The notes beneath the pieces were generated by a model. That model was given only the letters and a program-made list of their open reading frames with translations, did no database searches and had not been told where the DNA came from. A stretch of 44,200 nucleotides of DNA from an uncultured Clostridia bacterium (GTDB lineage: Bacteria > Bacillota > Clostridia > Christensenellales > Aristaeellaceae), in the NCBI GenBank assembly GCA_946413245.1, contig CAMKJS010000023.1, forward strand, positions 1-44,200, written 5' to 3'. This document shows, piece after piece, positions 10,451 through 23,716 of this stretch. The position numbers and the translations under genes are program-made. Within the stretch, counting starts at the first letter, position 1. Each line of letters opens with the position of its first letter.

Positions 10451-10521
10451 AGGGGCATGGTGTAATGGTAACACGTGGGTCTCCAAAACCTTTGTTGAGG
10501 GTTCGAATCCTTCTGCCCCTG
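10451..10521 (+). tRNA. tRNA-Trp (anticodon CCA)
   Basis: The 71-base cloverleaf has an acceptor stem AGGGGCA pairing with TGCCCCT at 10514-10520, and a discriminator G at 10521. The D-arm is around TGTAATGGTAACA. The anticodon loop CTCCAAA carries CCA. The T-arm has a GAGGG/CCTTC stem around TTCGAAT. No CCA end is encoded. Pairs 27-43 (T-T) and 28-42 (G-T) of the anticodon stem are imperfect. The 3' part from 10480 is also the left half of the attachment site of the 13-kb element, and integration leaves the tRNA gene complete. Confidence 0.93.
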
Positions 10522-10569
10522 CGTAAACGCAAAACCCTGTAGATTCAAGGTCTACAGGGTTCTTCTTTT
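10480..10569 (+). repeat. attL: left copy of the attachment repeat, with tRNA terminator
   Basis: The first 60 bases are identical to 23627-23686. The next 15 differ at five positions and the last 15 (10555-10569) are identical again, giving 85 of 90 identical. Inside is a hairpin (ACCCTGTAGA ... TCTACAGGGT) followed by TCTTCTTTT, which acts as terminator for the tRNA-Trp transcript in the integrated state. Confidence 0.92.
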
Positions 10570-10597
10570 GCTTCCGAATCATGCCCGTTTTCGGGGC

Positions 10598-10640
10598 TTG
10601 GGGTTTACTTTGGGGTTTACTCTTGGGGTTGGGGCTTACT
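10598..10640 (+). repeat. Left tandem 12-bp repeats, candidate integrase arm sites
   Basis: TTGGGGTTTACT occurs at 10598-10609 and 10610-10621. A TTGGGG half lies at 10623, and TTGGGGCTTACT at 10629-10640 overlaps the last codons of the integrase gene. The same unit is repeated in the same orientation inside the right end (23476-23499). Paired 12-bp repeats beside both att sites are what arm-binding sites of lambda-type integrases look like. Confidence 0.5.
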
Positions 10641-11871
10641 TTGCTTCCTTCCTAGCCTTTGCGATGGCTGCGCTCATGACATCAGCTGTATGCTGCTGAG
10701 CTTTCTCAAACAGGTGGGTATATGTGTCCAAGGTGGTACTTGTCCGGGAATGTCCAAGCCTCCCGGATACTTCTTTGACATCACAACCGGCAGCGATCAG
10801 CAAGGATGCTCCTGTGTGGCGGAGACTGTACAGAGGAACGTCCTTCAGATTGTACTTTTGCTGTATCTCGCGCCATTTGTGAGTAGGCGTGGAGATGTAC
10901 AACCGGCGGCCAGTGTCACTGGTAAATATCGCGTCAGGTTCTTCCCAGAGTCCGCCACACTTCAGCCGCTGTTCAGCCTGAACAGATTTCCACTTGAGAA
11001 GTGGCTGCACGGCTTCCGGAGGGAGAACAATCGTCCTCATGGATGATTTTGTCTTTGGTCTGTCGGTCCGGACTGTTCCCACGCCTTTGACATGATTGGA
11101 ACCGGCGCGGATCGTCAACACGTTCTCTTCCAGATCTGACCAATTCAATGCGATCAGTTCACCAGGGCGACAGGAAGAAAACAGATCCAGCGTAAAGAAC
11201 GCTTGCCAAATCGGTTCCGGCAGCTGCTCAAGAGCTTCCATCAGCATAGCAACGTCTTCACCTTCCAGGAATTCTGATTCCGGCGTATCCTGGCGCGGTG
11301 GATCCACAGCGATGAGAGGATTGACTGTAATGTATCCGGATCTCACAGCAAAATTCAGGACGGCGGACAGAAATTGATGGTAATGCTTGCGGCTCGTGCC
11401 GGAGAGCTTCCCGGTTTTCGAACGTGTCTTTGGAGGCTGCTTGTTCTTGTCCTTGCTAACCTTGTGGTTTGGCCTTGCGTCATCCTGTTCCAGGTACTTG
11501 TAAAAGTCGCGGATCTGCCGGGGAGTGAGATCCTGAACATAGATCTTTCCGAGCTTGTCCTTGATCCGTCTTTCTAGCAGCGCGTAATATCCGGCTTTTG
11601 TACTCGCTGCCATTGGTTTTGATTCGATAAATTCCACTGCTACGTCATACAGACGGATTTTCTTTGCTTCGGTGATAACGTGTCTCCGATAATCCGTTTC
11701 CAGGGCATCCGCTTGGCGCTGTGCCTGCTTCCGCTGACTTGCTTCGGTGCTGTTCGGATTGACTTTGATTGTCCGTCTTACCCGGTTTTGAGTGCCGTCA
11801 GGATTATAGCCATCACAGACAGTAGCTCTCCATGTGCCTGTTGCGAGGTTTCTTAATTCCACTGTTGCCAT
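10636..11871 (-). CDS. int: Tyrosine recombinase (site-specific integrase)
   Basis: The 411-residue protein starts at an ATG with GGAGG 8 bases upstream. Residues ~1-75 resemble an arm-binding domain (GTWRATVCDGYNPDGTQ...). Residues ~75-180 form the SAM-like core-binding domain, and ~200-411 the catalytic domain. Catalytic residues are Arg235 (SSCRPGELIALNW), Lys275, Arg351 in YSLRHTG, His374 in LGHSRTSTT and nucleophile Tyr384 in DTYTH. The usual HxxR histidine is Tyr348 here, a replacement tolerated in some family members. The gene is 66 bases from the left attachment repeat with its 3' end facing it, the usual arrangement for tRNA-targeting phage and satellite integrases. It would carry out integration and, with an Xis partner, excision at tRNA-Trp. 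Confidence 0.95.
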   Translation of the reverse strand: MATVELRNLATGTWRATVCDGYNPDGTQNRVRRTIKVNPNSTEASQRKQAQRQADALETDYRRHVITEAKKIRLYDVAVEFIESKPMAASTKAGYYALLERRIKDKLGKIYVQDLTPRQIRDFYKYLEQDDARPNHKVSKDKNKQPPKTRSKTGKLSGTSRKHYHQFLSAVLNFAVRSGYITVNPLIAVDPPRQDTPESEFLEGEDVAMLMEALEQLPEPIWQAFFTLDLFSSCRPGELIALNWSDLEENVLTIRAGSNHVKGVGTVRTDRPKTKSSMRTIVLPPEAVQPLLKWKSVQAEQRLKCGGLWEEPDAIFTSDTGRRLYISTPTHKWREIQQKYNLKDVPLYSLRHTGASLLIAAGCDVKEVSGRLGHSRTSTTLDTYTHLFEKAQQHTADVMSAAIAKARKEAK

Positions 11872-11910
11872 TGTTCACGCCTCCTATCATTGTGGAAGTC
11901 TGTACACGCT

Positions 11911-12495
11911 TCAGATCTGCCGTTGTACCTGGATGATTCTTCCCGGAATAGTTGCTTCTTGAATATCGCATTTCATCAGAACACTGCTGGGAAAGAAAAT
12001 TTCCATCACTTCATCGTCCGTCAGATTGAGCGCAACTCTGATTTTCACAATTTCCCATTGCCGGAATTCGCGCTTTCCTGTCATTGCGTTCCAGAATTCA
12101 TGATAAACAAGACCAGCCTTTTCACAAAAATTTTCTAATGACATTTTTCGGGAAGTGATTGCTGTTGCAAGCTTCGGAAAAACAATTTCTTCAGGCGTAT
12201 CCATTGAGTCAAATTCTGCTCTTGTAATTCCCAGCAACTGCGCGTCCGAGGGTTCATTGTCCCAGAATGTGGTCGTCGGATCATTCATCAGATGCTCGTT
12301 AATGTCCATGTCAAACGTCCCAGCTTCATCGCCTCCGAGAAGATACCCACCTGGGCCGGCAACACAAATCACAGCCGGGGCGGCATAATGCCAGATAACT
12401 CCGTCATCAATATTGACATCGCCTCTCCAAACAACAGATCCCCTGGGCATTGCTTCAATTTCCTTCAGAGTGAGCTTTTTCGCATTGGTATTCAT
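11911..12495 (-). CDS. XRE-like HTH protein of unknown role (satellite regulatory arm)
   Basis: The frame is open to 12729, but the real start is most likely the ATG at 12495, preceded by GGAAGGAA. The upstream part of the frame is low-complexity and crosses a terminator. The 194-residue product has an N-terminal domain rich in Gly and aromatic residues (VVWRGDVNIDDGVIWHYAAP...). Its C-terminus at ~125-185 has the spacing of a Cro/CI-type helix-turn-helix (MSLENFCEKAGLVYHEFWNA ... WEIVKIRVALNLTDDEV). It lies between the repressor gene and the integrase gene, all on the minus strand, with a 39-base gap to int. Its place suggests a regulator or an antirepressor-like partner, but the N-terminal domain is not recognised. 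Confidence 0.65.
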   Translation of the reverse strand: MNTNAKKLTLKEIEAMPRGSVVWRGDVNIDDGVIWHYAAPAVICVAGPGGYLLGGDEAGTFDMDINEHLMNDPTTTFWDNEPSDAQLLGITRAEFDSMDTPEEIVFPKLATAITSRKMSLENFCEKAGLVYHEFWNAMTGKREFRQWEIVKIRVALNLTDDEVMEIFFPSSVLMKCDIQEATIPGRIIQVQRQI

Positions 12496-12528
12496 GTGGT
12501 GTTCCTTCCTTTCTAAATCGTTTGTGTC

Positions 12529-12558
12529 TTGATCGGAAACACCATTCCGGGGTATAAT
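12529..12558 (+). promoter_or_regulatory. Plus-strand promoter inside the repressor operon
   Basis: TTGATC at 12529-12534 and a perfect TATAAT at 12553-12558 are spaced by 18 bases. No plus-strand gene follows before the terminator at 12600-12641, which suggests a short RNA product. Confidence 0.5.
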
Positions 12559-12564
12559 CTCTTT

Positions 12565-12641
12565 GGTGCTTCCTTCTGTAGTGAGTTGGTGGTGCCGCTG
12601 CTGCCGATCCGGATCCCCTCCGGCGGCAGCTCTTTTTTTTT
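12565..12641 (+). ncRNA. Candidate ~77-nt antisense RNA
   Basis: A plus-strand promoter (12529-12558) and a strong plus-strand terminator (12600-12641) stand 42 bases apart with no reading frame between them. The predicted transcript is complementary to the intercistronic mRNA between the repressor gene and the XRE-like gene, both on the minus strand. Its start at ~12565 is inferred from the -10 box. I know of no family it belongs to. Confidence 0.4.
12600..12641 (+). terminator. Strong plus-strand terminator with nine T residues
   Basis: Outer stem GCTGCCG (12600-12606) pairs with 12624-12630, and inner stem CCGGA (12609-12613) pairs with TCCGG (12619-12623). Nine T residues follow at 12633-12641. 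No plus-strand gene is present upstream. On the minus strand the same hairpin has no T tract and should not stop the repressor operon. Confidence 0.75.
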
Positions 12642-12658
12642 GCGTTCGGTGCGTGTGA

Positions 12659-13510
12659 TCATTCATTTCCATACATATCTTCAAACTCTTTTTGAATAAT
12701 ACCCTGATTCCATTCCATAAAAGTGGCATTACTAATCTTAGCAGTCAAAGCATCAATCTTCTTCAACATTTTTTCGATCCGTTTTTCTTCTTCTGCCGGT
12801 CGATCCTCATAAAGCATAGTATGCAGATCATTATAATCGTCTTCTAATCTTTCCAGCATCTCGTTCCGTGTCTGTTTTTCAGCGTAAACCCTGTATTGTT
12901 TACTGACAGCAAGTCTCCAATCGGTCAACCCTTCTTTTTTCCTCCTTTCCTCCTTTCCTTTTTCATGTGTTTCTCTGACATTCCTGATAATGCTTGTCAG
13001 TTCCTGACTTGCAATAAAATCAGCAATATCAGCACCAACACCAACGGAAAAATCGATTGGTTTTTCTGCATAGGAAGAGAGTAAGTTGCGCGGGATTTCG
13101 TCAAGATTTCGCCAGGCTATCTCATCTTCATCAGTGGAAAGAACCAGGGCGTGGAAGAATCGATCTGAATTCTTATGATCGATTATTTCCGATAAAATGC
13201 CATCAATGCCAGTACCTTTTAGGCTGATAAGCTTTTTTATTGCTTCGACAGACAATCCAGTTATCTCTTTGAAATATTTTATGTCGTGCGTGGGTTCCTG
13301 TATCCGGCCCGTAAGATAGTCAAGATCACACTGGAAGAGATCACACATAGATAAAAGATTATCAAGTCGGGGTAATACTGGCTTTTTCTCATTCTCCCAA
13401 CCTTTCACGAGTGAACGGTCAACGGACAGCGCATCTGCAAGATCCTGCTGAGATTTATAACCATGTTCTTTTCGGATTTGCTTTATCCTAATGGGTAATA
13501 TTATGTCCAT
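12659..13510 (-). CDS. CI-like XRE-family repressor
   Basis: The 283-residue protein has an N-terminal helix-turn-helix at ~8-65 (IKQIRKEHGYKSQQDLADAL, VDRSLVKGWENE, then LCQCDLDYLTGR-like end). The rest is a long charged, coiled-coil-rich region (ERRKKEGLTDW..., EEEKRIEKMLKKIDALTAKI). No LexA/CI-type autoprotease Ser-Lys pair is obvious. If it is the master repressor, derepression may need a helper-phage protein, as in SaPI Stl proteins. That is inference. AAGGAGGTGA precedes the ATG. A promoter with a perfect palindrome lies upstream, suggesting autoregulation. The gene is divergent from the small HTH and replication genes, the classic lysogeny switch layout. Confidence 0.82.
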   Translation of the reverse strand: MDIILPIRIKQIRKEHGYKSQQDLADALSVDRSLVKGWENEKKPVLPRLDNLLSMCDLFQCDLDYLTGRIQEPTHDIKYFKEITGLSVEAIKKLISLKGTGIDGILSEIIDHKNSDRFFHALVLSTDEDEIAWRNLDEIPRNLLSSYAEKPIDFSVGVGADIADFIASQELTSIIRNVRETHEKGKEERRKKEGLTDWRLAVSKQYRVYAEKQTRNEMLERLEDDYNDLHTMLYEDRPAEEEKRIEKMLKKIDALTAKISNATFMEWNQGIIQKEFEDMYGNE

Positions 13511-13563
13511 TTATATCTTTCACCTCCTTCCTTAAGGGCATCAACTTGGTGTTTCCGATAACC

Positions 13564-13592
13564 ATCATATCATGATAAGCTATCATCGTCAA
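13564..13592 (-). promoter_or_regulatory. Repressor promoter with overlapping palindromic operator
   Basis: Read on the minus strand, TTGACG (13592-13587), a 17-base spacer and TATGAT (13569-13564) form a promoter for the repressor gene. The perfect 10-bp palindrome TATCATGATA (13568-13577) covers the edge of its -10 box. A second half-site TATCAT starts at 13581 and a TTGATA near 13603, so repressor could bind several sites between the divergent genes. Confidence 0.65.
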
Positions 13593-13672
13593 GAGGGACC
13601 CCTTGATAAATTGGCCGGACCGAAGCGCACGGAAAAGCCAGTAGGATAAAAGTGATTATGGAGGTAGATACC

Positions 13673-13864
13673 GTGAACAATTTGAAAATCCGTTACAAGC
13701 TCATAGAAAAGGGTATGAAACATTATGAATTGGACAGGATCCTTGGAATCAGCGAGCCAACACGCTGCAGATTGCTTCGGAATGAGCTGCCGGAAGTCAA
13801 ACAGGAAGAAATCTGTAAGCTCATCGATGAATATGCAGCGAAGGGAGGCCAGGACCATGAGTAA
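13673..13864 (+). CDS. Small Cro-like HTH protein
   Basis: The GTG at 13673 lies 8 bases after GGAGG and is preferred over the upstream in-frame GTG at 13652. The 63-residue product has a helix-turn-helix pattern (MKHYELDRILGISEPTRCRL, then EEICKLIDEYA). It is the first gene of the rightward operon, directly opposite the CI-like repressor. A Cro-like or activator function in the satellite switch is the natural guess. Its 3' end overlaps the next gene by 8 bases. Confidence 0.7.
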   Translation: MNNLKIRYKLIEKGMKHYELDRILGISEPTRCRLLRNELPEVKQEEICKLIDEYAAKGGQDHE

Positions 13865-14060
13865 GGTCACTGAGGACCGCGTCCGGCGGCAGCTTGCAAA
13901 GCATGGTCTGATCCTGAAGAAGTGCCGGGGCCGGATCCATGCCGACAACCTGGGAGAATACATGGTCGTTGATCTCCGGAACAATTCCGTGGTGGTCGGC
14001 GCTAAGTATGACTGTTCCCTTGAGGAAATCGGAGAGATGATCAGAAAAGGGAGGTTGTAA
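13857..14060 (+). CDS. Small conserved-type hypothetical protein
   Basis: The ATG at 13857 lies 8 bases after GGAGG and overlaps the end of the preceding gene, so the two are probably translationally coupled. The 67-residue protein is basic at the N-terminus (VRRQLAKHGLILKKCRGRIHADN) and ends with GEYMVVDLRNNSVVVGAKYD...EEIGEMIRKGRL. I do not recognise a family with known function. Small proteins with this layout are common between the switch genes and the primase of Clostridia phages and islands. Confidence 0.7.
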   Translation: MSKVTEDRVRRQLAKHGLILKKCRGRIHADNLGEYMVVDLRNNSVVVGAKYDCSLEEIGEMIRKGRL

Positions 14061-14062
14061 GC

Positions 14063-14329
14063 ATGAGCGAAACTTACAAGGCTCAGATCTGTGAGCAGCT
14101 CCGGCAGCGCGGATTATATGAGCGACTGCTGACCACTGAGGAAGCGTCCGCTGCAACAGGTATATCACAGTATGAATTGAGGAAGGGAGCGAAAGAGGGG
14201 AGATACCCTTATATTCCTATGGGGAGTCCCCGGAATAAGTTCCGGAAAATGAAATGGAATCTTGCAGCCCTGGAAGAGTCTATCCGGCAGCAGATGGAAC
14301 AGAATTACAGCGGAGAGGGTGAACGCTGA
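14063..14329 (+). CDS. Excisionase-like / MerR-type HTH protein
   Basis: The ATG at 14063 is preceded by GGGAGG. The 88-residue protein carries a winged-helix pattern at ~25-60 (LLTTEEASAATGISQYELRK, then GRYPYIPMG) followed by a basic stretch (RNKFRKMKW). This is the usual look of Xis/AlpA-type small DNA-binding proteins. Its stop overlaps the start of the primase-helicase gene (TGATG). In satellites such a protein bends DNA for excision or activates the rep genes; which of these applies here is inference. Confidence 0.68.
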   Translation: MSETYKAQICEQLRQRGLYERLLTTEEASAATGISQYELRKGAKEGRYPYIPMGSPRNKFRKMKWNLAALEESIRQQMEQNYSGEGER

Positions 14330-16998
14330 TGGCAATTGAGTTCCTGGATATCTATCAACCGATATCAGAGGAAGCTTTGTCCAATGTTCCGGAATCAATG
14401 AAAGTGGCAGCTCGTTGGATTGTGTGGGGCGGATCAAAAGTACCAATGAACGGCAATGCCAGGAATAAAGCAGGATTTATCATCGGTGCGGATATCACAA
14501 ATCCTAAAGCATGGATGTCCTTTGAAGCTGCTGTTGCTCTGATCGGTGCAGAATGTTATCTCAAAAGAGAAGACATTTATTTCCACGTTGTTGGTATTGG
14601 CTTCATTGTTGGTGACGGTTGGTTCTGCCTGGATTATGACGGTGGCGAAGGACATCACAGGGAAGACGTTCCGCGCGATGACGTATTGCTGGCCGTTAAC
14701 ACGCTGAAGACGTACGCGGAAACATCACTTTCCGGCGCTGGCTATCATGTGTTCGGATCTGGCTTTGTCCTGGGTAACGGGGATCCGGAGAAATGCCATC
14801 CTCATTTCCCGCAAGCAGATTCCTACGAGATTGAATTCTTCACGCGGCGAAAGTTCCTGATCTTTTCCGGAAACAAGCTTCCGGAAGCTCCGACTGATGC
14901 TGCTGATTGTGCCGTTACCGCTGCGGAGTACCGTGATGATGTGCTACGTCCCATCTGGCACAAAGAAGAGGAAGCGCACAAGGCAGAGCGGCAAGCGGTT
15001 CATAACTCTATTCCTCTTGATCTGGATGACGCTGTTCAGATGTTCCTTCTGAATTATGAGGATATTCTGCGATTTGCAGATATTGACGAATTCAAGCGAG
15101 ACACAAAGGAATCCGGCGGTTATTCCTGGATTGGAGCTTTGAAAGGAATGCGTGATATCGGTGTGCCGTTTTCCGCTGCCCTGGCATGGTGTGAGCGCGG
15201 ATCCAGCTTCAAGTCAGAGAAGGACGTTGCTCACGTATGGAATGAGCAGCGCGGCGGGAAGAAATGCTCTGTCGCTGCGATTGTGAAAAGCGCAAAAGCG
15301 CACGGATGGAAACCTGATCCTGACAAACTGACCGGTGACTACAAAAAGAACCATGACGAAAAGGTACAGCGTGAAAAAGATCTTGATCAGTTTTCCGCAG
15401 CCGTGGAAAAGTGGACAGAATCAAAACGGTACACAGATTCTCTGACAGAGACATTTGGTGAAGAATCCGTTGATACTGTTACAACTGTAATTGATCCGGA
15501 GACAGGTGAAGTCATTCGCGAGACACCTGTCCCGGATCCGGTGGAGTCAGAAGATAATGAAGCTGCTGAATGGAAAACAATAGAGACTCTTCCTGCTTTA
15601 CCTGATTTTCCGCTCGATGTTCTCCCGGATTGGCTGCAAAGGTACATTATCAATTATCATGAGAATACCGGAGTTTCAAAGGACTTTTGTGCTGCATGTA
15701 TCTTAGGTGCAATTTCCACTGCGGTCAATGGACATTTGACTATTCATTTCAACACTACACACTATGAAGCAGCACAATTATACATTCTGTTTATAGGCAG
15801 ATCGGGAACTATGAAAAGCAGCACATTATCAGAATTCTATAGACCAATAACCACATGGTTAACAGAGAAAAATGATTCGGTCAGATCCCATAACCAATTG
15901 ATCATGAAGGAGATTGCACAACTTGAGGAGAAACAGAAAAATGCAGGCAGGAAGAAAGAAAACACAGAAGGAATTGAGTCACAGATAGAAGAGAAAAAAG
16001 CAGAATTGAGGCTTGAGTATCCGATCAGATACACAGATGTGACTCCGGAAGCGCTGGCCAGAAGGATGGCAGTTGCTGGAGGGTGTGCAACTCTGGCTTC
16101 GACAGAGGGAAACCTTATTCATTTGCTTACCGGGAAAAACGGTTCACAAAAAGGTAATATGCCGAATCTTGATGTTTTCTTACAAGGCGCGGACGGTGAA
16201 CCGGTAGTAATTTCACGCGTAACAACAGGGGATACTGTAATTCATCATGCTAATCTGTCTGTTTTGCTGGCCGCTCAGCCCGATCTGCTGGAGGAACTAA
16301 GCAAAAACAAAGAAGCAGTCGGACGTGGACTCGTTCCGCGGTTTCTTGTTTTTGCTCCGGAACAGGAATTCACTTTCATTGATCATACGCAGCCAGGGAC
16401 AACAGACAGACGGTTATACTATCAATGGTCAGATTGTATAAAACAGATAGCAGAGCGATTCATGCACCCAGGGGAGAAACCGATTGCTATGGAACTGGAT
16501 ATTTTTTCAGAAAGGGATATCAACGAATTGTGGAATTACACAGATAGCATTGTGGACACATATTCGGAAAATAGTATTCGTTCTTGGATTTCAAAGATGC
16601 GGGGTAAGGCATTGAGATTAGCAGCTATTTTCGCAGTCCTTGAGAATCCGCAGACAGGAAAGATTTCTGCTATCGAGACGGGAAAGGCCATCCGTTTGTT
16701 ACGTGAATATTTCTTTCCACATTATATGCGTGTTTACGAAAAAGAGATTATGCTGTCAGAACAGGAAAGAGCAATCATAGATTGGTCAAAACGGTTTTGC
16801 CTGAGAGAGAGTACAGATCATTTCAAACAGACTAACCTAAGTAACTACATCAGGCAGCTGAAAGCATTCAAGGATGAACCGGCAAGTAGATTGAACTCTC
16901 GTCTGGAAAAGCTCTGTGAGAAAGGCTATATACGACCATTTAGAAGCGCTGACTCGAATGCAAAGCAGTGGCAGATAAATCCTGAAATCCTGAAGTAA
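14329..16998 (+). CDS. Primase-helicase: AEP-like primase/PriCT fused to DUF3987 helicase-like domain
   Basis: The 889-residue replication protein has three parts. Residues ~20-215 look like an archaeo-eukaryotic primase of the NrS-1/DUF5906 kind: a DxD in CLDYDGG (D102, D104), a His in GAGYHVFG, then EIEFFTRRKFLIFSG. Residues ~245-345 resemble a PriCT linker (YSWIGALKGMRDIGVPF...WCERGS). Residues ~430-890 match DUF3987 helicase-like proteins, with a Walker A of form GRSGTMKSST (490-499), LASTEGNL, and a winged-helix tail (LSNYIRQLKAFKDEPASRLNSRLEKL). Such fused proteins start replication of satellites and small plasmids. The iteron region directly downstream is the likely target. Primer synthesis and unwinding are family knowledge; the fusion and motifs are seen here. 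Confidence 0.88.
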   Translation: MAIEFLDIYQPISEEALSNVPESMKVAARWIVWGGSKVPMNGNARNKAGFIIGADITNPKAWMSFEAAVALIGAECYLKREDIYFHVVGIGFIVGDGWFCLDYDGGEGHHREDVPRDDVLLAVNTLKTYAETSLSGAGYHVFGSGFVLGNGDPEKCHPHFPQADSYEIEFFTRRKFLIFSGNKLPEAPTDAADCAVTAAEYRDDVLRPIWHKEEEAHKAERQAVHNSIPLDLDDAVQMFLLNYEDILRFADIDEFKRDTKESGGYSWIGALKGMRDIGVPFSAALAWCERGSSFKSEKDVAHVWNEQRGGKKCSVAAIVKSAKAHGWKPDPDKLTGDYKKNHDEKVQREKDLDQFSAAVEKWTESKRYTDSLTETFGEESVDTVTTVIDPETGEVIRETPVPDPVESEDNEAAEWKTIETLPALPDFPLDVLPDWLQRYIINYHENTGVSKDFCAACILGAISTAVNGHLTIHFNTTHYEAAQLYILFIGRSGTMKSSTLSEFYRPITTWLTEKNDSVRSHNQLIMKEIAQLEEKQKNAGRKKENTEGIESQIEEKKAELRLEYPIRYTDVTPEALARRMAVAGGCATLASTEGNLIHLLTGKNGSQKGNMPNLDVFLQGADGEPVVISRVTTGDTVIHHANLSVLLAAQPDLLEELSKNKEAVGRGLVPRFLVFAPEQEFTFIDHTQPGTTDRRLYYQWSDCIKQIAERFMHPGEKPIAMELDIFSERDINELWNYTDSIVDTYSENSIRSWISKMRGKALRLAAIFAVLENPQTGKISAIETGKAIRLLREYFFPHYMRVYEKEIMLSEQERAIIDWSKRFCLRESTDHFKQTNLSNYIRQLKAFKDEPASRLNSRLEKLCEKGYIRPFRSADSNAKQWQINPEILK

Positions 16999-17009
16999 AG
17001 AAAAAGGCT

Positions 17010-17034
17010 GACCGGCTTACAACCGGTCTTTTTT
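17010..17034 (+). terminator. Terminator after the primase-helicase gene
   Basis: GACCGG at 17010-17015 pairs with CCGGTC at 17023-17028, followed by six T residues. It also holds the first TTTGTATA iteron at its 3' edge. Confidence 0.8.
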
Positions 17035-17288
17035 GTATAGGTTTGTATATGCGACAATATGACATATACAACGCTGGAATCGTTGCAGGACAAGGCGTTG
17101 CGGGAAACTTTGTATACTTTGTATAGATTTTCATATATTACCATGTCTCTCAGTCTCAATGGAGACTGTATATAAAAAATGCCTTAAGGAAAAGTATACA
17201 AAGTATACAAGATCAGGCTGAAAGCGTTGATATATATAGGATTGCGCATTGTATAGGTGGTATACGAAGCATATACAAACTTGTATGG
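17032..17288. repeat. TTTGTATA iteron array, candidate replication origin
   Basis: The 9-bp unit TTTGTATA(C/G/T) occurs at 17032, 17042, 17109 and 17118. It occurs on the other strand at 17064-17071, 17194-17202, 17203-17211 and about 17270-17279, with degenerate copies near 17249, 17260 and 17281. Two tandem pairs, 17109-17126 and 17194-17211, face each other across an AT-rich stretch with a CAGTCTC/GAGACTG hairpin. Position right after the primase-helicase gene fits a satellite origin recognised by that protein. Confidence 0.6.
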
Positions 17289-17359
17289 ATCGCAACTGTA
17301 CCGATGTGCCGCTACTATGAATCCGCGACAGTGCGGTTGATTAATGCCGAATCTTTTCC

Positions 17360-17409
17360 CTAAGTCGAACTTAGCCTTTCCTGACGGCCTAAGTTTAACT
17401 TATGCCGTC
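17360..17409. repeat. Paired CTAAGT dyads
   Basis: CTAAGTCGAACTTAG at 17360-17374 and CTAAGTTTAACTTAT at 17389-17403 are two copies of one palindrome, 29 bp apart. The second is extended by GACGGC/GCCGTC to a 27-bp dyad (17383-17409). They lie between the iterons and the sigma-like genes and may be protein-binding sites or part of the origin. Confidence 0.5.
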
Positions 17410-17505
17410 AAAGGATGTCGGTTGAAGCGACACTCTTTCAGCTACAGGACTGCAGCTGCTGCGGATCCGTGCCGGTGCGGTCGTGTGCATCAATTAACAT
17501 GGATC

Positions 17506-17527
17506 TAACACGCGTGTAACACGCGTG
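17506..17527. repeat. Tandem TAACACGCGTG repeat
   Basis: TAACACGCGTG occurs twice head to tail (17506-17516, 17517-17527). Each copy contains the palindrome ACGCGT. Nothing else recognisable lies between 17410 and 17619 apart from scattered short inverted repeats; no convincing reading frame was seen in 17035-17619. Confidence 0.5.
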
Positions 17528-17619
17528 CAATGCAAGATATTTTCCTGGCTGCCAGTCAACTACCCGTCAAGTAAAATTGGAAGTCTGTACAAGTACAGGA
17601 TCCCGGCGGCAGCTCTGCA

Positions 17620-17982
17620 CTAATCAATCTCGATCCTGTCCGGAAACATATTCTTCAGTGCTAGCTTTGCCAGTTTCAAATGATAGAAAACGTTTCTCCG
17701 GCTCATGTGCGTACCGGCAGCGATCGCTTCCGGCGGATATCCTTTGATATATCTCAGATAAATGATAATGCGCTGGTACTTATCCGGCAGCTCCATAATC
17801 ATCCTGGATAATTCATTTCTTAGTGATTTCAGTTTGTCCAGGTCTTCGGCATACGCTTCCTGCAGATCAGCAGCGGAAACAGTATTCTTTTCTCCAGGCG
17901 GATCCTCAGCAGCCTGGATAGCTCGCGCGACTCTGTCTGTTGACCGGATAAGTCTGTTCATCTCAGCAAAGTTGATGATCAT
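17620..17982 (-). CDS. Sigma-70 region 4-like HTH protein
   Basis: The 120-residue protein ends in a sigma region 4-like helix-turn-helix (IIIYLRYIKGYPPEAIAAGTH, then MSRRNVFYHLKLAKLAL). An acidic, coiled-coil-like N-terminal half (LDKLKSLRNELSRMIMELPDKYQR) precedes it. There is no region 2, so by itself it should not open promoters. Proteins of this form occur in Bacillota phages as late-gene regulators of the ArpU/RinA/DUF1492 kind. It is the last gene of the minus-strand right arm, starting 8 bases after the stop of the next upstream gene. An AAGG lies 12 bases before the ATG. Confidence 0.65.
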   Translation of the reverse strand: MIINFAEMNRLIRSTDRVARAIQAAEDPPGEKNTVSAADLQEAYAEDLDKLKSLRNELSRMIMELPDKYQRIIIYLRYIKGYPPEAIAAGTHMSRRNVFYHLKLAKLALKNMFPDRIEID

Positions 17983-17990
17983 GGTATTTG

Positions 17991-18362
17991 TCAGCCTTTC
18001 TGGTGCAGCACAGTGTTAACGCCTCCACCGGGCCGATGATGTTCATGATCCCGGCGGAGGCTCCGAAGGAAGCTGTTTAGGATTCTGCCCACGCTGCCGG
18101 GATGTATGTTCAGCAGGATGGAAATCTCCGGTTCACTCATACCCAGCGCAAAACACGCGTTGACTGCGTTCCTGGTTCGCCGGTCCTGGATGCTGTCGAG
18201 GATCTCCTCGAAGCGGATCAGATCGCGCTGCAGCTCCTCCGCCTGACGGATCATGCGCACGGTAGGCAGCCCGTGCCGGTGGTTCCAGTTGGCCTGGTTG
18301 CGGATCGTGTGAATCAGGAAGACGGTGTCCCGGTATTCCGTTACAATTTTCGCGTCATCCAA
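17991..18362 (-). CDS. Second sigma region 4-like HTH protein
   Basis: The frame is open to 18464, but GGAGG with a 7-base spacing points to a TTG start at 18362. This keeps the gene 4 bases downstream of the stop of the sigma-like gene at 18367. The 123-residue product has a helical N-terminus (TEYRDTVFLIHTIRNQANWN) and a C-terminal HTH (RTRNAVNACFALGMSEPEIS, then ILLNIHPGSVGRILNSF) like sigma region 4. Its role is probably to regulate satellite transcription, but no target is visible. The longer start cannot be excluded. Confidence 0.55.
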   Translation of the reverse strand: MDDAKIVTEYRDTVFLIHTIRNQANWNHRHGLPTVRMIRQAEELQRDLIRFEEILDSIQDRRTRNAVNACFALGMSEPEISILLNIHPGSVGRILNSFLRSLRRDHEHHRPGGGVNTVLHQKG

Positions 18363-18366
18363 TGTA

Positions 18367-19152
18367 TCACCTCCGCCGGGTTGCCCGAAAACGTTCTTTT
18401 TCAGGCGGATCCTTTGACATTGCAAAAGCCCCTTGTCCGAATAAATCATCATACTGTTTTTCAAGCCACAAAATTTCAGCTTCTACAGCGCTTGTCCATG
18501 TGCTGCGGAATCGATCAATTCCAACAAGAAACATAGGCTTTGCAAGCTTCCGTAAGCGCCAATCTTTTGCAAGGGCTACCCGTCCATTCTTGTCTAGTGC
18601 CATGAGTGCCGGTTTTTTTATTCCCATGTTGGCAGCTGCGTCTTCACGGGTTTGTCCGTTCAACCAGATCCGCTGTATCGCTTCACGCTGCTTTGATGAT
18701 TTCAACCGATCGACCGCGGCGCGGATCTCAGTCTGAATCTCACGTTTTTCTGCTTCTTCGACAAGTTCTTCCTCCCGTGTCGGGTGCGGATCCGGAACAA
18801 AGTCAAGCCTGGTTCCACTGTCTGAATCATCCTCCGACAAAGGTTCATCTAGGGAGATTGGTAAATCCGGCAATGATCCATCATGTTGATACCCTATGGT
18901 TCGCCGCATTGCGGAACGGATCCATTTATCAGCATATGACAAGAATGAAGCTCCGCCATCCGGATCATACTTTTCCTGAGCTTTCAGAATGGCAATCCGT
19001 CCGGCCTGGATCAGATCTTCCTCATCGACTGCATTATTATGTGTCAATGCGTGGGTGTATCGCTTTGCTGTTTTGCATATGAGAGGCGTAAACTGAAGGA
19101 TTAGCGTTTCGGGGTCAACAGTTGGAATATCCTGAATGTCTGCCGGTCGCAA
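18367..19152 (-). CDS. Sigma-70 family protein of phage type
   Basis: The start is a TTG at 19152 with GGGAGG 8 bases upstream; the nearby ATG is out of frame. The 261-residue protein has a clear sigma region 2 at ~18-88 (LILQFTPLICKTAKRYTHAL, DEEDLIQAGRIAILKAQEKY, SFLSYADKWIRSAMRRTIGY). An acidic linker (LSEDDSDSGTRLDFVPDPHP) follows, then a region 4-like HTH at ~140-195 (QREAIQRIWLNGQTREDAAA, NMGIKKPALMALDKNG). A basic ~65-residue tail follows that sigma factors normally lack. It heads a run of three sigma-like genes. It may redirect RNA polymerase to satellite or helper promoters; that is inference. Confidence 0.72.
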   Translation of the reverse strand: MRPADIQDIPTVDPETLILQFTPLICKTAKRYTHALTHNNAVDEEDLIQAGRIAILKAQEKYDPDGGASFLSYADKWIRSAMRRTIGYQHDGSLPDLPISLDEPLSEDDSDSGTRLDFVPDPHPTREEELVEEAEKREIQTEIRAAVDRLKSSKQREAIQRIWLNGQTREDAAANMGIKKPALMALDKNGRVALAKDWRLRKLAKPMFLVGIDRFRSTWTSAVEAEILWLEKQYDDLFGQGAFAMSKDPPEKERFRATRRR

Positions 19153-19174
19153 CGGTCATCCCTCCCTGGCCGAA

Positions 19175-19330
19175 TCAGCTTTGCTCCTGTTGTTCCATCA
19201 GTAAATCATGAAAGAATGTATCCGGATCATTGTAGACCAGGCGCGGATTCTGCCGGAGCCGTGGCAGCTCTTTCTGATCGGCAGCAGCTGAAGGCTTTGC
19301 GCGTTGCTCATTCTTCTCTTGTTTGCTCAT
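19175..19330 (-). CDS. Small hypothetical protein (51 residues)
   Basis: An ATG at 19330 follows AAGGAGTAA, in which the TAA is the stop of the terminase-like gene, so the two are probably coupled. The product begins MSKQEKNEQRAKPSAAA and ends FFHDLLMEQQEQS. It is hydrophilic, with no recognised domain. It ends 22 bases before the TTG start of the sigma-like gene. Confidence 0.6.
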   Translation of the reverse strand: MSKQEKNEQRAKPSAAADQKELPRLRQNPRLVYNDPDTFFHDLLMEQQEQS

Positions 19331-19334
19331 TGGG

Positions 19335-19730
19335 TTACTCCTTGGAGAAATCAGATAGTACGTTCTCTAAGAGTGCAGTGAAACCGCTTTTCCCTTGTGC
19401 CGGTACAAGTGGAAGCAGGTTCTTTATGATCGCGTTCGATAGTTTTTGATATTCGGTCAGCGTCTTTACATCCGGGTTCGTCCGGATCCCGCTTTGACCA
19501 CCACCGTTGTCATAAGCGACAAGCGTTCCAAACTGATTTATCTTTTCCTGCAACTCTGCAATGCCGACATTGAAAAAAGCAAGCTGCTGCACCTGATCCC
19601 GGATAAAGTCCAGCTGATTCGGATTCACCTGTCCAAACAGAGTCATCAGCCGGTTATTCTCAGCTCTGATTTTCTTCCTCCGCCTGGCTGCATCTCTGTC
19701 GGCCTGGTTGAGCTGCTGATTCTTCACCAT
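19335..19730 (-). CDS. Terminase small subunit-like protein (P27-type)
   Basis: The 131-residue protein has a basic N-terminus (DRDAARRRKKIRAENNRLM) and then a helical core, NPNQLDFIRDQVQQLAFFNV and ELQEKINQFGTLV. A GGGQSGIRTNPDVKTLTEYQ stretch and the ending KNLLPLVPAQGKSGFTALLE follow. This order of a helical body, a Gly-rich turn, 'NP' and a long helix is that of P27-family small terminases, which recognise cos DNA for HK97-type phages. No large terminase is present in the element. In phage satellites an own small terminase redirects the helper's packaging motor to satellite DNA. The assignment is by pattern and is moderately sure. The gene overlaps the upstream PLD-like gene by 71 bases. 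Confidence 0.55.
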   Translation of the reverse strand: MVKNQQLNQADRDAARRRKKIRAENNRLMTLFGQVNPNQLDFIRDQVQQLAFFNVGIAELQEKINQFGTLVAYDNGGGQSGIRTNPDVKTLTEYQKLSNAIIKNLLPLVPAQGKSGFTALLENVLSDFSKE

Positions 19731-20421
19731 CTGTTTTCACTTCCTTTGACCATTTCGGCACATTATCAAATTCTCTTTCAAAAGAGATGATTCCATTGAA
19801 GAAATCCAGGTAGAAATCACATAATCCGTCATCCAGTGTGATACAGGTCTGCTCAGTCCTGGGGTTTGTGTTTACGTTGGCGGAGGATTCTATCACAGCA
19901 TTGAAGCGCTCACCGAATACAACCATAACTTTACTATGGTTCCTGAAGATGGACATTTTACAGCCATGTTTCCGGCATAATTCTTTGACTGCTTCATACT
20001 CTGCGGTATAGGTTCCGCGGAAGATCTCCCCACAAAAGAAGTCGAGCCGCTGGATATATCCCTTTTCCAACCAGGAATCTATCTCTTTGATATCCGTCAG
20101 GGCCATGCACCAGGTGGAGATGATCGCGTATCGGATCCGCTGCTGTTTCACAATTACCCGGAGATAAGTCAAGCTATCAACGTCACCGAAAGAAACACAA
20201 TGATAAGCAGTGCCTTGTTCAAAGTGCCATGGGAGTGACTGCTCTAAGGCGTGTTCAGAGCTGATCCGCCTGGCCTGATGAGAAGTCATGGTCTTTTTCA
20301 CTTTGACAACTTCATACAGCGGATCATCTGGAACTGGCTCCGCTTTTGACTTCGTTGGCTCCGGTTTCTGTTCGATTCCCATCAGCTCAAGAATTGACGG
20401 GACGTTTCCAAAACTGTTCAT
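19660..20421 (-). CDS. Phospholipase D-like protein
   Basis: The frame is open to 20460, but GGAGG 5 bases before the ATG at 20421 sets the start (253 residues). The C-terminal half has one HxK motif of PLD type, FRNHSKVMVVFGERF, followed by ESSANVNTNPRTEQT. There Ser/Asn take the place of the usual GSxN. The first HKD motif is not seen, so the enzyme would need to dimerise or may have lost activity. PLD-fold proteins in phages include nucleases and helicase-associated enzymes; a role in DNA processing during packaging is a guess. Its last 71 bases overlap the start of the terminase-like gene in another frame. A hairpin separates it from the upstream gene. Confidence 0.55.
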   Translation of the reverse strand: MNSFGNVPSILELMGIEQKPEPTKSKAEPVPDDPLYEVVKVKKTMTSHQARRISSEHALEQSLPWHFEQGTAYHCVSFGDVDSLTYLRVIVKQQRIRYAIISTWCMALTDIKEIDSWLEKGYIQRLDFFCGEIFRGTYTAEYEAVKELCRKHGCKMSIFRNHSKVMVVFGERFNAVIESSANVNTNPRTEQTCITLDDGLCDFYLDFFNGIISFEREFDNVPKWSKEVKTDGEESAAQPGRQRCSQAEEENQS

Positions 20422-20456
20422 ACGTTCCTCCGCCGGTGTTATTGGGCTTACGCAGC

Positions 20457-20486
20457 ACAAGCCCGGATTGATCGCTCCGGGCTTGT
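20457..20486. other. Intercistronic hairpin
   Basis: A perfect 11-bp stem, ACAAGCCCGGA at 20457-20467 with 20476-20486, has an 8-base loop. On the plus strand it is followed by TCTTTGTATT. On the minus strand, the direction of the flanking genes, there is no T tract. It may stop antisense transcription or shape the mRNA between the two genes. Confidence 0.5.
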
Positions 20487-20514: not shown

Positions 20515-21114
20515 TCACATTCTTTTCAGAGAATTGATGATGGAATTAAAAACTCTTTGCGAGCTCTGTACAGATACAGTCGGTAACTCTCCGGAAAATG
20601 TTGCATTGTGAAATCTTGTAAGCTCATATGCCCCCGGAAGCGGATGGAATGTTGTTTCATAGCCGGTATTTCCTGCAGATACTTCCTCATCCCATTTCTG
20701 AATAAGGCGATTCCTATCAGTCTCAATTTTTACGGCTTCTCCTGAAAGCTCAAACAATTCCCTGACAATATCAAGCATTCTTCCCGCTATAGGAGCCAAC
20801 TTTTCGACATGTTCCTTATTCACGGTGCGGATAAAGTTTCTTGTTTCATCCGAAGAAACCAGATTGCTCCGCTTCAGTTTATTCCGTTTGAGATTTTTTC
20901 CTTCTTCATAGATTTTCTTTTGAGCGATTTTATGCTTGTTCTCTGCTGCTGTATAGCGTTCGATCAGATCGGGATTATCATCAGTCTCACACAGTTCCTT
21001 TGATGCATCATCCTGTATGACTTTCCATTTTCGGATATCCTCTTCAATCTTTTTCCTTTGTTCCTCTCGCCGGGTGTCCATGTCCTGAAGCATTTCAAGC
21101 GCTGTTTTTCCCAT
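20515..21114 (-). CDS. Coiled-coil protein, possible scaffold- or capsid-associated
   Basis: GGAGG precedes the ATG at 21114. The 199-residue protein has a highly charged N-terminal half that should form a coiled coil (REEQRKKIEEDIRKWKVI, ERYTAAENKHKIAQKKIYEE). A less charged C-terminal half with aromatic residues follows (GYETTFHPLPGAYELTRF). No family was recognised. It lies between a prohead-protease gene and the terminase-like gene. That fits a scaffold-like or size-determining partner, but position is the only support. Confidence 0.6.
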   Translation of the reverse strand: MGKTALEMLQDMDTRREEQRKKIEEDIRKWKVIQDDASKELCETDDNPDLIERYTAAENKHKIAQKKIYEEGKNLKRNKLKRSNLVSSDETRNFIRTVNKEHVEKLAPIAGRMLDIVRELFELSGEAVKIETDRNRLIQKWDEEVSAGNTGYETTFHPLPGAYELTRFHNATFSGELPTVSVQSSQRVFNSIINSLKRM

Positions 21115-21134: not shown

Positions 21135-21383
21135 TTATCTCACACTGTAGTTATGTGCAACTGCCTTGATCCGATAAGCCGCGAACGAGCTAAACTTCCG
21201 CCGCTGTGATTCCAGATCGTTCCGGAGCTTATTGATTTCCTGTTCCCGGCTTTCGATCCGCTTCCGGATCTCCTCCGCCTGGGAATAATCCCCGGCAGAT
21301 TCTGCTTTCTTCAGCAGCCGCTTATCGAATCTCTGAACGGTCTTTTTTTCACCAATTGCTTTTACGATCTCTTGAGAATTCAC
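21135..21383 (-). CDS. Small coiled-coil protein
   Basis: The start is a GTG at 21383 with GGGAG 9 bases upstream. The 82-residue product is almost wholly charged helix (RFDKRLLKKAESAGDYSQAE, ESREQEINKLRNDLESQRRK) and ends SFAAYRIKAVAHNYSVR. It sits between the prohead-protease gene (22-base gap) and the larger coiled-coil gene (20-base gap), clearly in one operon. No function is recognised. Confidence 0.65.
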   Translation of the reverse strand: MNSQEIVKAIGEKKTVQRFDKRLLKKAESAGDYSQAEEIRKRIESREQEINKLRNDLESQRRKFSSFAAYRIKAVAHNYSVR

Positions 21384-22256: not shown

Positions 22257-22321
22257 CTATCAAAACGCGCCGCCGGGCGCGAATTGACCAAATTAAGAAC
22301 CATGTGCTCACTTAACTACTA

Positions 22322-22338: not shown

Positions 22339-22407
22339 CATGCACAAAAAGCCCCCGCGTGTGTAAGGTTCGCCCCTTCCGGTGTCAGCCCCCAATTTAT
22401 TAACCGG

Positions 22408-22431
22408 CCAGGGGTGGGGGGGGATGCCTGG
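22408..22431. other. Candidate cos-type packaging site
   Basis: In a non-coding stretch (22257-22452), CCAGG at 22408 and CCTGG at 22427 form a dyad around a G-rich block. The block has four G, one T and eight G, at 22411-22423. G-rich cohesive ends are common in HK97-type phages of Bacillota, and the block lies in the packaging arm. No direct proof is available from sequence alone. Confidence 0.3.
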
Positions 22432-22452
22432 AACCATCCGGAAGCAGATCCA

Positions 22453-22788: not shown

Positions 22789-22803
22789 CATCCGTCTCCG
22801 TTA

Positions 22804-23133
22804 TCATTCGTAATACTGTTTAAGTTTTCTTTCTTCATCAGGGTTGCAGAATGTTTTGAGGATCTTATAGAATACAATGTCATCAACGTCCATGATCTTA
22901 ATATCAATCCTTCCGTCTTCCATGGGCGAAAGCATTAGTAGCCGGTTCTTTCTTTTATCAGCTGTCAAAGGAAGGATGAGGGACAAATTGTCTTCAAATA
23001 TCCCACAAATCTTGTAGCCGTTAAGCTGATTAATTCTCCAGGGACCGATATCATCCCACTTATAGGACTGATGAAATTCCACTTGTTCACCATTTCCGTT
23101 GATACTCCATCCCTCCGGCGATTCATTAAACAT
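22804..23133 (-). CDS. Hypothetical protein of the satellite right arm
   Basis: The frame runs to 23187, but the ATG at 23133 lies 7 bases after GGAGGG and is the likely start, giving 109 residues. The N-terminus of the longer frame overlaps the gene at 23126. The protein starts MFNESPEGWSINGNG and has hydrophobic stretches ICGIFEDNLSLILPL and NRLLMLSPM. It ends in a charged tail, NPDEERKLKQYYE. No family was recognised. It overlaps the preceding gene by 8 bases. Confidence 0.65.
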   Translation of the reverse strand: MFNESPEGWSINGNGEQVEFHQSYKWDDIGPWRINQLNGYKICGIFEDNLSLILPLTADKRKNRLLMLSPMEDGRIDIKIMDVDDIVFYKILKTFCNPDEERKLKQYYE

Positions 23134-23323
23134 TAACGGTCCCTCCATTCTTTTTAGTCTCCGGTGTGTTGCTATGGATCCCGGCAACAGCTTTAAGTTC
23201 TTCAGCTTTCTTCAACCAATACTTTTCATTGGCCGCTCTGACTTTGTCGGGATTCTCCGCTCTCCATTTTCGGTAATATTCTCGCTTCTTCTGAAGCTGT
23301 TTTTCTCTCGCGTATTCCGACAT
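23126..23323 (-). CDS. Small basic protein, first gene of the right-arm operon
   Basis: The ATG at 23323 lies 8 bases after GGAGG and 24 bases after a TATAAT box. The 65-residue product is basic and helical: EYAREKQLQKKREYYRKWRA, then NPDKVRAANEKYWLKKAEEL. This KREYYRKWRAENPDKVRAAN type of segment is frequent in small phage proteins and at the edge of phage AP2/HNH proteins, and may bind nucleic acid. Its function is unknown. Confidence 0.7.
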   Translation of the reverse strand: MSEYAREKQLQKKREYYRKWRAENPDKVRAANEKYWLKKAEELKAVAGIHSNTPETKKNGGTVNV

Positions 23324-23346
23324 TGCTCATTCCTCCTATTAGGATA

Positions 23347-23376
23347 ATTATACCATGCTTCTACCTATTCTTCCAA
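23347..23376 (-). promoter_or_regulatory. Promoter of the right-arm operon
   Basis: On the minus strand, TTGGAA (23376-23371), an 18-base spacer and a perfect TATAAT (23352-23347) lie just before the gene starting at 23323. The -35 box is poor and phased repeats lie right upstream, so activation is likely. Confidence 0.7.
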
Positions 23377-23377
23377 T

Positions 23378-23436
23378 GTACATCTAATAATAATATACAT
23401 CAGATGTAATAATACATCAGATAAAAATACATTGAT
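23378..23436. repeat. Three 11-bp repeats phased at 17 bp upstream of the right-arm promoter
   Basis: GTACATCTAAT (23378), ATACATCAGAT (23395) and ATACATCAGAT (23412) start exactly 17 bp apart. A fourth, one-base-deleted copy (ATACATTGAT) starts at 23427. The last two full copies are identical. They end at the -35 box, the place for activator sites. Confidence 0.65.
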
Positions 23437-23468
23437 AAAAAAATGCCATCTGGCTTATACTCAGATGG
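23437..23468 (-). terminator. Minus-strand terminator at the right border
   Basis: On the minus strand, CCATCTG pairs with CAGATGG (23468-23462 with 23452-23446) and is followed by a run of seven T (23443-23437). It would stop transcription that enters the element from the right, so the right-arm operon relies on its own promoter. Confidence 0.75.
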
Positions 23469-23475
23469 TCAATTC

Positions 23476-23499
23476 TTGGGGTTTATTTTGGGGTTTACT
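23476..23499 (+). repeat. Right tandem 12-bp repeats, candidate integrase arm sites
   Basis: TTGGGGTTTATT (23476-23487) and TTGGGGTTTACT (23488-23499) repeat head to tail and match the units at 10598-10640 in the same orientation. No reading frame or other structure was seen between 23500 and the att repeat at 23627. Confidence 0.5.
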
Positions 23500-23626
23500 C
23501 GTCATTTTTTGAGGATCTAAGCAGGGGAATGGATTGGACTCTTGAACGGCTGAAACGCTTGCAGCGTAAGGGATTGAAGGACTTTCCTGAAAATCTCTGA
23601 AAAGTCCTGAAAAGCGTTTTATTGTT

Positions 23627-23716
23627 TCTCCAAAACCTTTGTTGAGGGTTCGAATCCTTCTGCCCCTGCGTAAACGCAAAACCCTGCAGAATCAAATTCT
23701 GCAGGGTTCTTCTTTT
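23627..23716 (+). repeat. attR: right copy of the attachment repeat with 3' tRNA fragment
   Basis: This copy holds the 3' half of tRNA-Trp (from the anticodon loop), then the host terminator hairpin (CCCTGCAGA ... TTCTGCAGGG) and TTCTTCTTTT. It matches 10480-10569 at 85 of 90 positions, with the first 60 exact. It has no promoter or 5' half and is not a working tRNA gene. Confidence 0.92.

Follow-up and report, generated by a model that had tools for sequence, protein, structure and literature searches.

The stretch examined here, hereafter the window, comprises positions 1 to 44,200 of contig CAMKJS010000023.1 (44,200 nucleotides, assembly GCA_946413245.1) from an uncultured Clostridia bacterium of the family Aristaeellaceae, and contains, at positions 10480-23686, a real and apparently intact integrated satellite-type element of about 13.15 kb. 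The unusual recurring feature of this element is a prohead protease of the S78 (HK97) type that is encoded without a capsid. Exact direct repeats of 60 nucleotides, 13,147 bp apart from start to start, border the element, and the left copy lies in the 3' part of a tRNA-Trp gene. The location agrees with a preliminary description made from the letters of the sequence, in which the element was read as an island-like phage satellite with exact attachment (att) repeats in that gene. Repeats of GGGGTTTAC type lie just inside both ends and may represent arm-type sites of the integrase. The gene flanking the element has relatives within the genus that are only 39-43% identical.

From the left, the integrase, an open reading frame (ORF) of unassigned family and a CI-like repressor occupy the minus strand, followed on the plus strand by a Cro-like protein, two small proteins and a DUF3987 primase-helicase (Table 1). 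The CI-like and Cro-like genes form a divergent control region, as in phage-inducible chromosomal islands (PICIs); further PICI traits are the integrase with its specific att site and the length of about 13 kb, the listed size of PICIs being about 15 kb. Past a stretch of short repeats, a second minus-strand arm converges on the replication genes, an arrangement which had been pointed out before and which the gene order upholds. This arm consists, in order, of the small protein p65, two proteins of no assigned family, the S78 protease, cc82, cc199, a phospholipase D (PLD) type nuclease overlapping the small terminase (TerS), a 51-aa ORF and, at its end, two sigma-like proteins with a third, weakly sigma-like protein between them. 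Purine-rich sequence precedes most of its starts (nine starts, by eye).

Table 1. Features of the integrated element and its attachment site, in window coordinates.
Feature	Position	Strand	Support or remark
tRNA-Trp, integration site	10451..10522	+	ARAGORN; Rfam tRNA
att repeat, left copy, 60 nt exact	10480..10539
GGGGTTTAC-type repeat near left end	10597..10622		repeat family D2
Tyrosine integrase, 411 aa	10636..11871	-	Pfam 2.3e-18; PHROG 6e-65; 31-32% to L164 integrase
Protein of unassigned family	11911..12495	-	start 12495 chosen by eye (ORF open to 12729); no family over cut-off
CI-like repressor, 283 aa	12659..13510	-	HTH_3 7.5e-9; phrog_8
Cro-like helix-turn-helix (HTH) protein, 70 aa	13652..13864	+	HTH_26
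HTH-like protein, 88 aa, possible excisionase type	14063..14329	+	weak HTH_17
DUF3987 primase-helicase, 889 aa	14329..16998	+	Pfam 1.6e-58; phrog_2373, phrog_3022
Direct and inverted repeats 3' of primase gene, candidate origin	17032..17285		weak
Sigma-70 region-4 type protein, 120 aa	17620..17982	-	Sigma70_r4_2 8.6e-9; phrog_36
Weakly sigma-region-4-like protein, 157 aa	17991..18464	-	below cut-offs
Sigma-70 family protein, 261 aa	18367..19152	-	Sigma70_r2 8.8e-11; TIGR02937 63.9 bits; 33% to L164 sigma
Small terminase (TerS), 131 aa	19335..19730	-	phrog_5110, phrog_1066; tblastn matches in L187, L161, L166, L168
PLD/NucT-type endonuclease, 266 aa, overlaps TerS	19660..20460	-	phrog_16945
cc199, probably helical, no relatives found	20515..21114	-	low-confidence helical model
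cc82, coiled-coil-like, 22 nt after protease	21135..21383	-
S78 (HK97-type) prohead protease, 205 aa	21406..22023	-	Pfam Peptidase_S78 7.3e-45; phrog_80 1.3e-57; TIGR01543; 72-73% to L012
Protein of no family, 112 aa	22453..22791	-	library scans
Protein of no family over cut-off, 127 aa	22804..23187	-	library scans
Small protein p65 (phrog_14214)	23126..23323	-	matched in all four elements (window, L164, L185, L186)
GGGGTTTAC-type repeat near right end	23475..23500		repeat family D2; 96% alike to 10597-10622 copy
att repeat, right copy, 60 nt exact	23627..23686

Scans of 20 window ORFs against Pfam and PHROGs confirm the integrase, the CI-like repressor and the primase-helicase of the preliminary description, together with its HK97-type prohead protease, on which Pfam, PHROG and NCBIfam models agree and which exceeds the curated cut-offs, with 153.5 bits against 21 for Peptidase_S78 and 129 against 59 for TIGR01543 ('HK97 family phage prohead protease'). 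The small terminase also holds, by weaker profiles (phrog_5110, 'terminase small subunit', 2.2e-7; phrog_1066, which names no function, 1.8e-12) and by 39% identity over a 55-codon stretch to the ORF directly before terL, the gene of the large terminase (TerL), in phage L187. By tblastn, TerS matches the ORF before terL in phages L187, L161, L166 and L168, with 25-53% identity locally.

No separate capsid, portal, large terminase, tail or lysis family was named in the 20 ORFs, as had been claimed from the letters, and tblastn panels of capsid, portal and TerL proteins from related phages gave no match in the window. Connectors were likewise not named in the Pfam and PHROG scans, the tblastn panels having covered capsid, portal and TerL. 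The genes of Sid, Delta and Psu type are marks of P4-like satellites; none of these families was named in the general scans of the window, no search having been aimed at those proteins. The protease also matches 'major head' PHROGs and one NCBIfam protease-capsid fusion model, over its protease part, since such models include fusions. An element without a recognisable capsid, portal, large terminase or tail must therefore borrow particles, if it is particle-borne at all.

The capsid gene is a regular companion of such proteases elsewhere. A tblastn capsid panel was applied to the 6 kb downstream, on the same strand, at 121 protease loci and the window, and a capsid gene was found downstream of the protease in 110 of these 122 loci. 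Six further loci end less than 700 nt after the protease, and one (L172) was missed by the protease panel, with a Pfam Phage_capsid protein adjoining. Five loci gave no capsid match: the window, the elements L164, L185 and L186, and L160, in which 821 nt of contig follow the protease. Among the 110 positive loci, four (L009, L166, L171, L190) rest on a same-locus query, a Pfam capsid domain being confirmed in three of them, and the 122 loci are not fully independent, with 106 distinct protease stretches among the 120 compared. Within the genus, 10 proteases were found in 9 of 45 genomes, eight with a capsid gene and two, those of the window and L164, with none.

A few of the loci surveyed are of interest in themselves. 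In the phage-like L160 (9453-10843; G232:C52), an ORF about 70 nt after the protease is tail-tube-like by eye, without a Pfam match, and no capsid match occurs up to the contig end, through either an assembly break or a true rearrangement. A single protein of 774 aa in L171 joins the S78 domain to a Phage_capsid_4 domain. The small phage record LT985578 encodes a related protease, and the ORF after it looks like a capsid gene.

The protease of the window appears to derive from phages. A Pfam S78 search of 200 genomes of the family gave 22 places in 21 genomes, of which 20 regions were fetched, the other two being that of the window and one lying at the very start of a contig; ten protease loci were taken from species genomes. 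Of 107 confirmed relatives in IMG/VR, the best 80 show 51-73% identity over the best segment; in L012, the closest of those listed, terS is followed by terL, portal, the protease and the beginning of a capsid gene (by eye). In the phages the protease directly precedes the capsid gene, and in most of the related ones the ORF after the protease begins with a charged, helical-looking stretch (by eye). Pfam Phage_capsid was recognised in seven of eight stand-alone putative capsid ORFs, the eighth, that of L012, being truncated where its contig stops.

Among 14 aligned proteases, that of the window shares 72% identity with L012 and 60-62% with three other phages, and only 21-22% with those of L164, L185 and L186. 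The latter three share 60-68% mutual identity and are 35-40% identical to the phages L187-L189 and L165, while local identities between the satellite proteases and that of L187 are 43-51%. The distance between 72% and 21-22% argues that capture of a lone protease probably happened on two or more occasions, from different phage lineages. Two residues which we take to be catalytic in S78 proteases, His in the D/N-H motif and Ser in the S-F/W/H motif after it, are invariant in 14 of 14. Nonsynonymous divergence (dN) of the protease is 0.20-0.34 in five pairs, with synonymous divergence (dS) beyond computing in all five (NG86, YN00). The proteases thus appear to have been held by selection over the compared history, part of which was possibly spent in phages.

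Descent of the element from a single prophage by deletion was considered and rejected as the main reading. TerS of the window resembles the L187 and L161 groups and the protease resembles L012, which are different phage groups. In phage L002, moreover, PLD-terS precedes the protease and capsid, whereas in the window the protease comes first and PLD-TerS follows, so that the element would not arise from such a phage by one deletion; the terL and portal of L002 were assigned only by where their ORFs lie, its TerS ORF matched the pre-terL ORFs of other phages, and the capsid matched the panel. None of the loci fetched held a full-length prophage with the gene order of the window, the ancestor that the preliminary description had considered for a deletion remnant. 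Over a stretch, the PLD nuclease of the window shares 51% identity with the ORF that immediately precedes terS in L002, and it is 54.5% identical to the endonuclease of Bacteroides phage BT-TP2, which follows the portal there; next to TerS, it is possibly a packaging-linked nuclease in place of HNH.

Three further capsid-less elements, L164, L185 and L186, were found to carry an S78 protease of another phage lineage, which is the new observation of this work; their ORFs were scanned against the libraries in part. L164, in a genome of the same genus (G018), occupies 6164-19374 at a tRNA-Val gene (6137-6211), with exact att repeats of 45 nt that are 13,160 bp apart. It codes for an integrase, a CI-like repressor, recombination and replication genes, sigma-like proteins and the S78 protease, and the capsid, portal and TerL panels were unmatched in it (tblastn). 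Just inside both of its ends lie AAGTCGGACAAA-type repeats, like the GGGGTTTAC repeats of the window. With the L164 protease as query, IMG/VR yielded six loci, namely L185, L186, L187-L189 and L190; in L187-L189 a capsid gene follows the protease (by Pfam for L187), and L190 appears to have one (by eye).

L185 (IMG/VR 3300021399_003514) has an exact terminal repeat of 127 nt, with an implied circle of 13,422 bp, and codes for a primase, a DnaB-type helicase, a topoisomerase, a ParA-like protein (by eye), the protease block and a TerS assigned to phrog_1066, as is that of the window. Three integrase queries found no integrase in it, and it has the make-up of a plasmid-like satellite. L186, of 12,428 bp and not closed, has an integrase reading to the contig end, sigma, Rad52-type, NinB-like, G39P-like and Gp157-like genes, the S78 protease and a repressor named by eye. 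The sizes of the four elements (13,147; 13,160; 13,422; at least 12,428 bp) are as similar as a packaging limit would make them, four elements being few.

In L164, L185 and L186 the protease stands in a conserved block, preceded by a common protein (the partner) and followed by a common protein of 131-143 aa. Compared with L164, the first protein is 44% identical in L185 and 39% in L186, the protease 68 and 60%, and the last protein 56 and 45%, respectively. The three genes abut in L185; about 140 nt precede the last gene in L186, and in L164 a sigma-region-4-like gene lies between the protease and the last block protein. The first and last proteins were unmatched in the window and in the phage loci L165, L187-L189, L161, L166, L168, L169 and L197-L201. 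A profile scan of IMG/VR with the first protein gave, of these elements, only L185 among the matches listed, though L186 holds a relative, while scans with the last protein and with the protease of this lineage each found no locus other than L185 and L186; the protease profile failed to pick up L187-L189, which are known phage relatives. In 391 genomes of the class the protease profile gave none at 1e-20, a strict threshold in a set with no positive control, and in 396 genomes of the order the partner profile matched G018 and one marginal case with an internal stop. Since the profile scans miss known relatives, rarity of this family does not follow from them.

The independent conservation asked of the element is thus present in one respect: a capsid-less protease recurs in L164, L185 and L186, and the exact gene set of the window was not found elsewhere. 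Accompanying genes recur in part. The small protein p65 belongs to a PHROG and therefore need not be specific to satellites. Sigma-70-like proteins of region-2 type and region-4 type occur in the window (17620-19152), in L164 (8834-9283, 10814-11560) and in L186 (1-948, 9972-10394), and none was recognised in the partly scanned ORFs of L185. These proteins, recurring in three of four elements, could be late activators.

The reading favoured here, to which we give a probability of roughly 0.45, is that the element of the window is a phage satellite which works like a PICI and whose protease acts in or on helper procapsids. Infection by a helper would derepress the element, which would then replicate, and the sigma-like proteins may turn on the minus-strand arm. 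TerS, of a type that sits before terL in phages, would recruit the large terminase of the helper, redirection of that enzyme being its natural role. The protease and its partners may enter the HK97-type procapsid of the helper as a protease-scaffold set, much as the protease-scaffold protein of P2 does, which would favour those procapsids that take up satellite DNA and whose maturation the satellite controls. The protease and its neighbours would most plausibly act at the procapsid, shaping, maturing or perhaps spoiling the particle for the helper. More tentative, and less probable, is the general proposal that satellites supply a maturation protease with partners and without a capsid, thereby controlling assembly or maturation of the helper HK97-type procapsid, and that this state was reached at least twice. 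The satellite reading of the preliminary description is thus retained as regards a protease and TerS without a recognised capsid; its recurrence rests on a separately assembled lineage and not on the gene set of the window.

Several results weigh against this reading. The PF05065 capsid family was found in neither of two genomes, that of the window (78.6% complete) and G018 (95%), so that no co-resident helper was seen, although capsids of the L187, L165 and L003 phages are detected with this model; the protease of the window is also the sole S78 match in its own genome. TerS was matched in two of the four elements only, and the combination of cc199, the DUF3987 protein and the protease of the window was not found elsewhere, which leaves its lineage a single case. 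By hhalign, cc199 is unrelated to the conserved partner proteins of the L164 lineage, and no partner gave a convincing match to capsid scaffold domains. Structure models were too poor for a scaffold fold to be seen (mean pLDDT 57 for the L164-lineage partner and 45 for cc199). The L164-lineage protease has a helical-looking C-terminal extension (by eye); the phage proteases of L187-L189 carry C-terminal extensions as well, and this tail is therefore not specific to satellites.

The comparison of partners with capsids used a profile of capsid N-termini from 74 phage sequences, namely those longer than 300 aa among 84 downstream ORFs. The idea that cc82 is a leftover of the capsid delta domain found no support, at an hhalign probability of 0.7% with 2 of 40 shuffles scoring as high. 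The L164 partner exceeded 40 of 40 shuffles, likewise at 0.7%, and this was not counted, because shuffling destroys helical periodicity. Nothing was obtained for cc199 (9 of 40 shuffles as high), the tail of the L164 protease (29 of 40) or the third block protein (30 of 40). The model of the L164-lineage partner had no Foldseek match at E 0.001, and solved structures gave no useful match for the protease or partner profile. Relatives of cc199 were found neither in IMG/VR, in a scan that finds close relatives only, nor in 50,697 phage records, and among 396 genomes of the order it occurs in one, as its own copy.

Other explanations of the lone protease have to be set beside this reading. The most serious rival, doubtful as it is, regards the protease as a weapon which, produced early or in excess, would cut the delta domain of the helper capsid protein and block helper heads, the satellite then being packaged in what remains or simply protecting its host. 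The protease is indeed close to phage proteases that precede capsid genes with helical-looking N-termini, and its presence without a capsid is explained by interference as readily as by assembly; PICIs, moreover, commonly interfere with their helpers, according to the part of the literature consulted (PMC6092414). Yet two conserved partners accompany the protease in three elements, more than a lone weapon needs, and TerS is also present in two of the four. It is less likely again that the element is an ordinary PICI in which the protease is an optional late gene without a special role, an account which overlaps with the other readings, so that their likelihoods do not sum to one. The layout of integrase, repressor, primase, candidate origin and terS in about 13 kb suits it, and it is kept alive because capsid genes, present in 21 of 29 reference Gram-negative PICIs, are reported as not required for transfer in the passages drawn on (PMC10111431); a satellite-plasmid of Vibrio that combines capsid, protease and TerS has also been published (PMC13230959). 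Two separate captures without a capsid, and in one lineage two partners conserved around the protease, are more difficult to reconcile with a gene of no special role.

The protease may otherwise have been repurposed, its target during induction being, for instance, a host protein, a sigma-like regulator or a repressor, which is quite improbable. Sigma-like proteins do occur in the window, L164 and L186, and the capsid neighbour is gone. S78 proteases, however, cleave head proteins, and the satellite enzymes are still 72% (window) and 35-40% (the others) identical to capsid-linked phage enzymes. Lowest in likelihood stands the view that the element is a decayed prophage, or the protease a chance acquisition, and that the gene has no function. 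The exact combination of the window was not found elsewhere, cc199 occurs in 1 of 396 genomes and the matches of the DUF3987 protein at E 1e-30 are at 25-34%, as a remnant or passenger might show; against it stand the exact 60-nt att repeats, uninterrupted ORFs, invariant candidate catalytic columns and a low dN with dS beyond computing, as well as the recurrence of the lone protease in three elements from another phage source and the placing of the protease before PLD-TerS here, against PLD-terS before the protease in L002.

The proposed action on helper procapsids may be compared with known systems, the cited reports being drawn on in part. Like the element of the window, Gram-positive PICIs have an integrase with att sites, a repressor with divergent control, a primase, a candidate origin and TerS in about 15 kb, with no recognised tail or lysis genes in the account consulted; the window differs from them in its prohead protease with probably helical neighbours, PLD nuclease, convergent arms and sigma-like proteins (PMC6092414). 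A TerS of the SaPI type redirects the helper large terminase (PMC6092414, PMC10690885). Capsid-forming PICIs code for a head maturation protease and TerS, as the window does, but also for capsid, portal, connectors, TerL and HNH, of which capsid, portal and TerL were not found in the window (PMC10690885). SaPIbov5 with Ccm acts on a helper whose HK97-type capsid has a delta domain and is served by a herpes-like protease, and a helper of this sort may be expected for the element of the window; SaPIbov5 supplies a capsid homolog, with no protease identified in it in the text consulted, and the element of the window supplies a protease with no recognised capsid, so that the two look like complements (PMC8569155). 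In Vibrio, the PISP TG93 has a head maturation protease and TerS, no integrase and an episomal state with ParA, like L185, yet TG93 and the cf-PISP TG54 carry a capsid gene, whereas the window, L164, L185 and L186 do not (PMC13230959).

Satellites reported to reshape or replace particles use scaffolds, capsid homologs or complete capsids of their own (PMC10945586). The scaffold is part of the capsid protein in HK97 and part of the protease in P2 (PMC6893505); this linkage of protease and scaffold in the P2 protein recalls the helical-looking extension of the L164-lineage protease, while no homolog of P4 Sid was recognised in the general scans (PMC6893505, PMC10945586). The PLE protein TcaP provides a case of a satellite without capsid homologs that acts on the helper coat protein, as proposed here, but it is an external scaffold and not a protease (PMC10945586). 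In the literature searched, which covers the field in part, no satellite was met that has a prohead protease but lacks a capsid, and absence from print is not claimed; capsid-forming PICIs and TG93 come nearest among the published systems consulted. Head genes may also occur in PICIs of Gram-positive cocci.

If the proposed action on procapsids is true, satellites would have one more way to capture particles, in addition to external or internal scaffolds, homologs of the capsid and complete capsids of their own, and proteolysis of the procapsid would be another control point that a phage parasite can seize. An S78 protease without a capsid gene may also serve as a search rule for satellites in Clostridia-type bacteria, in which, to our knowledge, few have been described.

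Of the remaining genes, defence models gave weak matches only. The iterons of the preliminary description are weak, the candidate origin comprising three 10-nt copies of TTGTATAGRT and a few palindromes. The DUF3987 protein had no relative in IMG/VR and weak matches in 5 of 50,697 phage records; at E 1e-30 it was matched in 7 other genomes of 200, with 25-34% identity. In one of these five, a 12.9-kb record of the phage collection (L128, MT836114.1), a DUF3987 protein stands beside integrase, repressor, relaxase-like and methyltransferase-like proteins (by eye), and this record looks like a mobilizable element rather than a phage.

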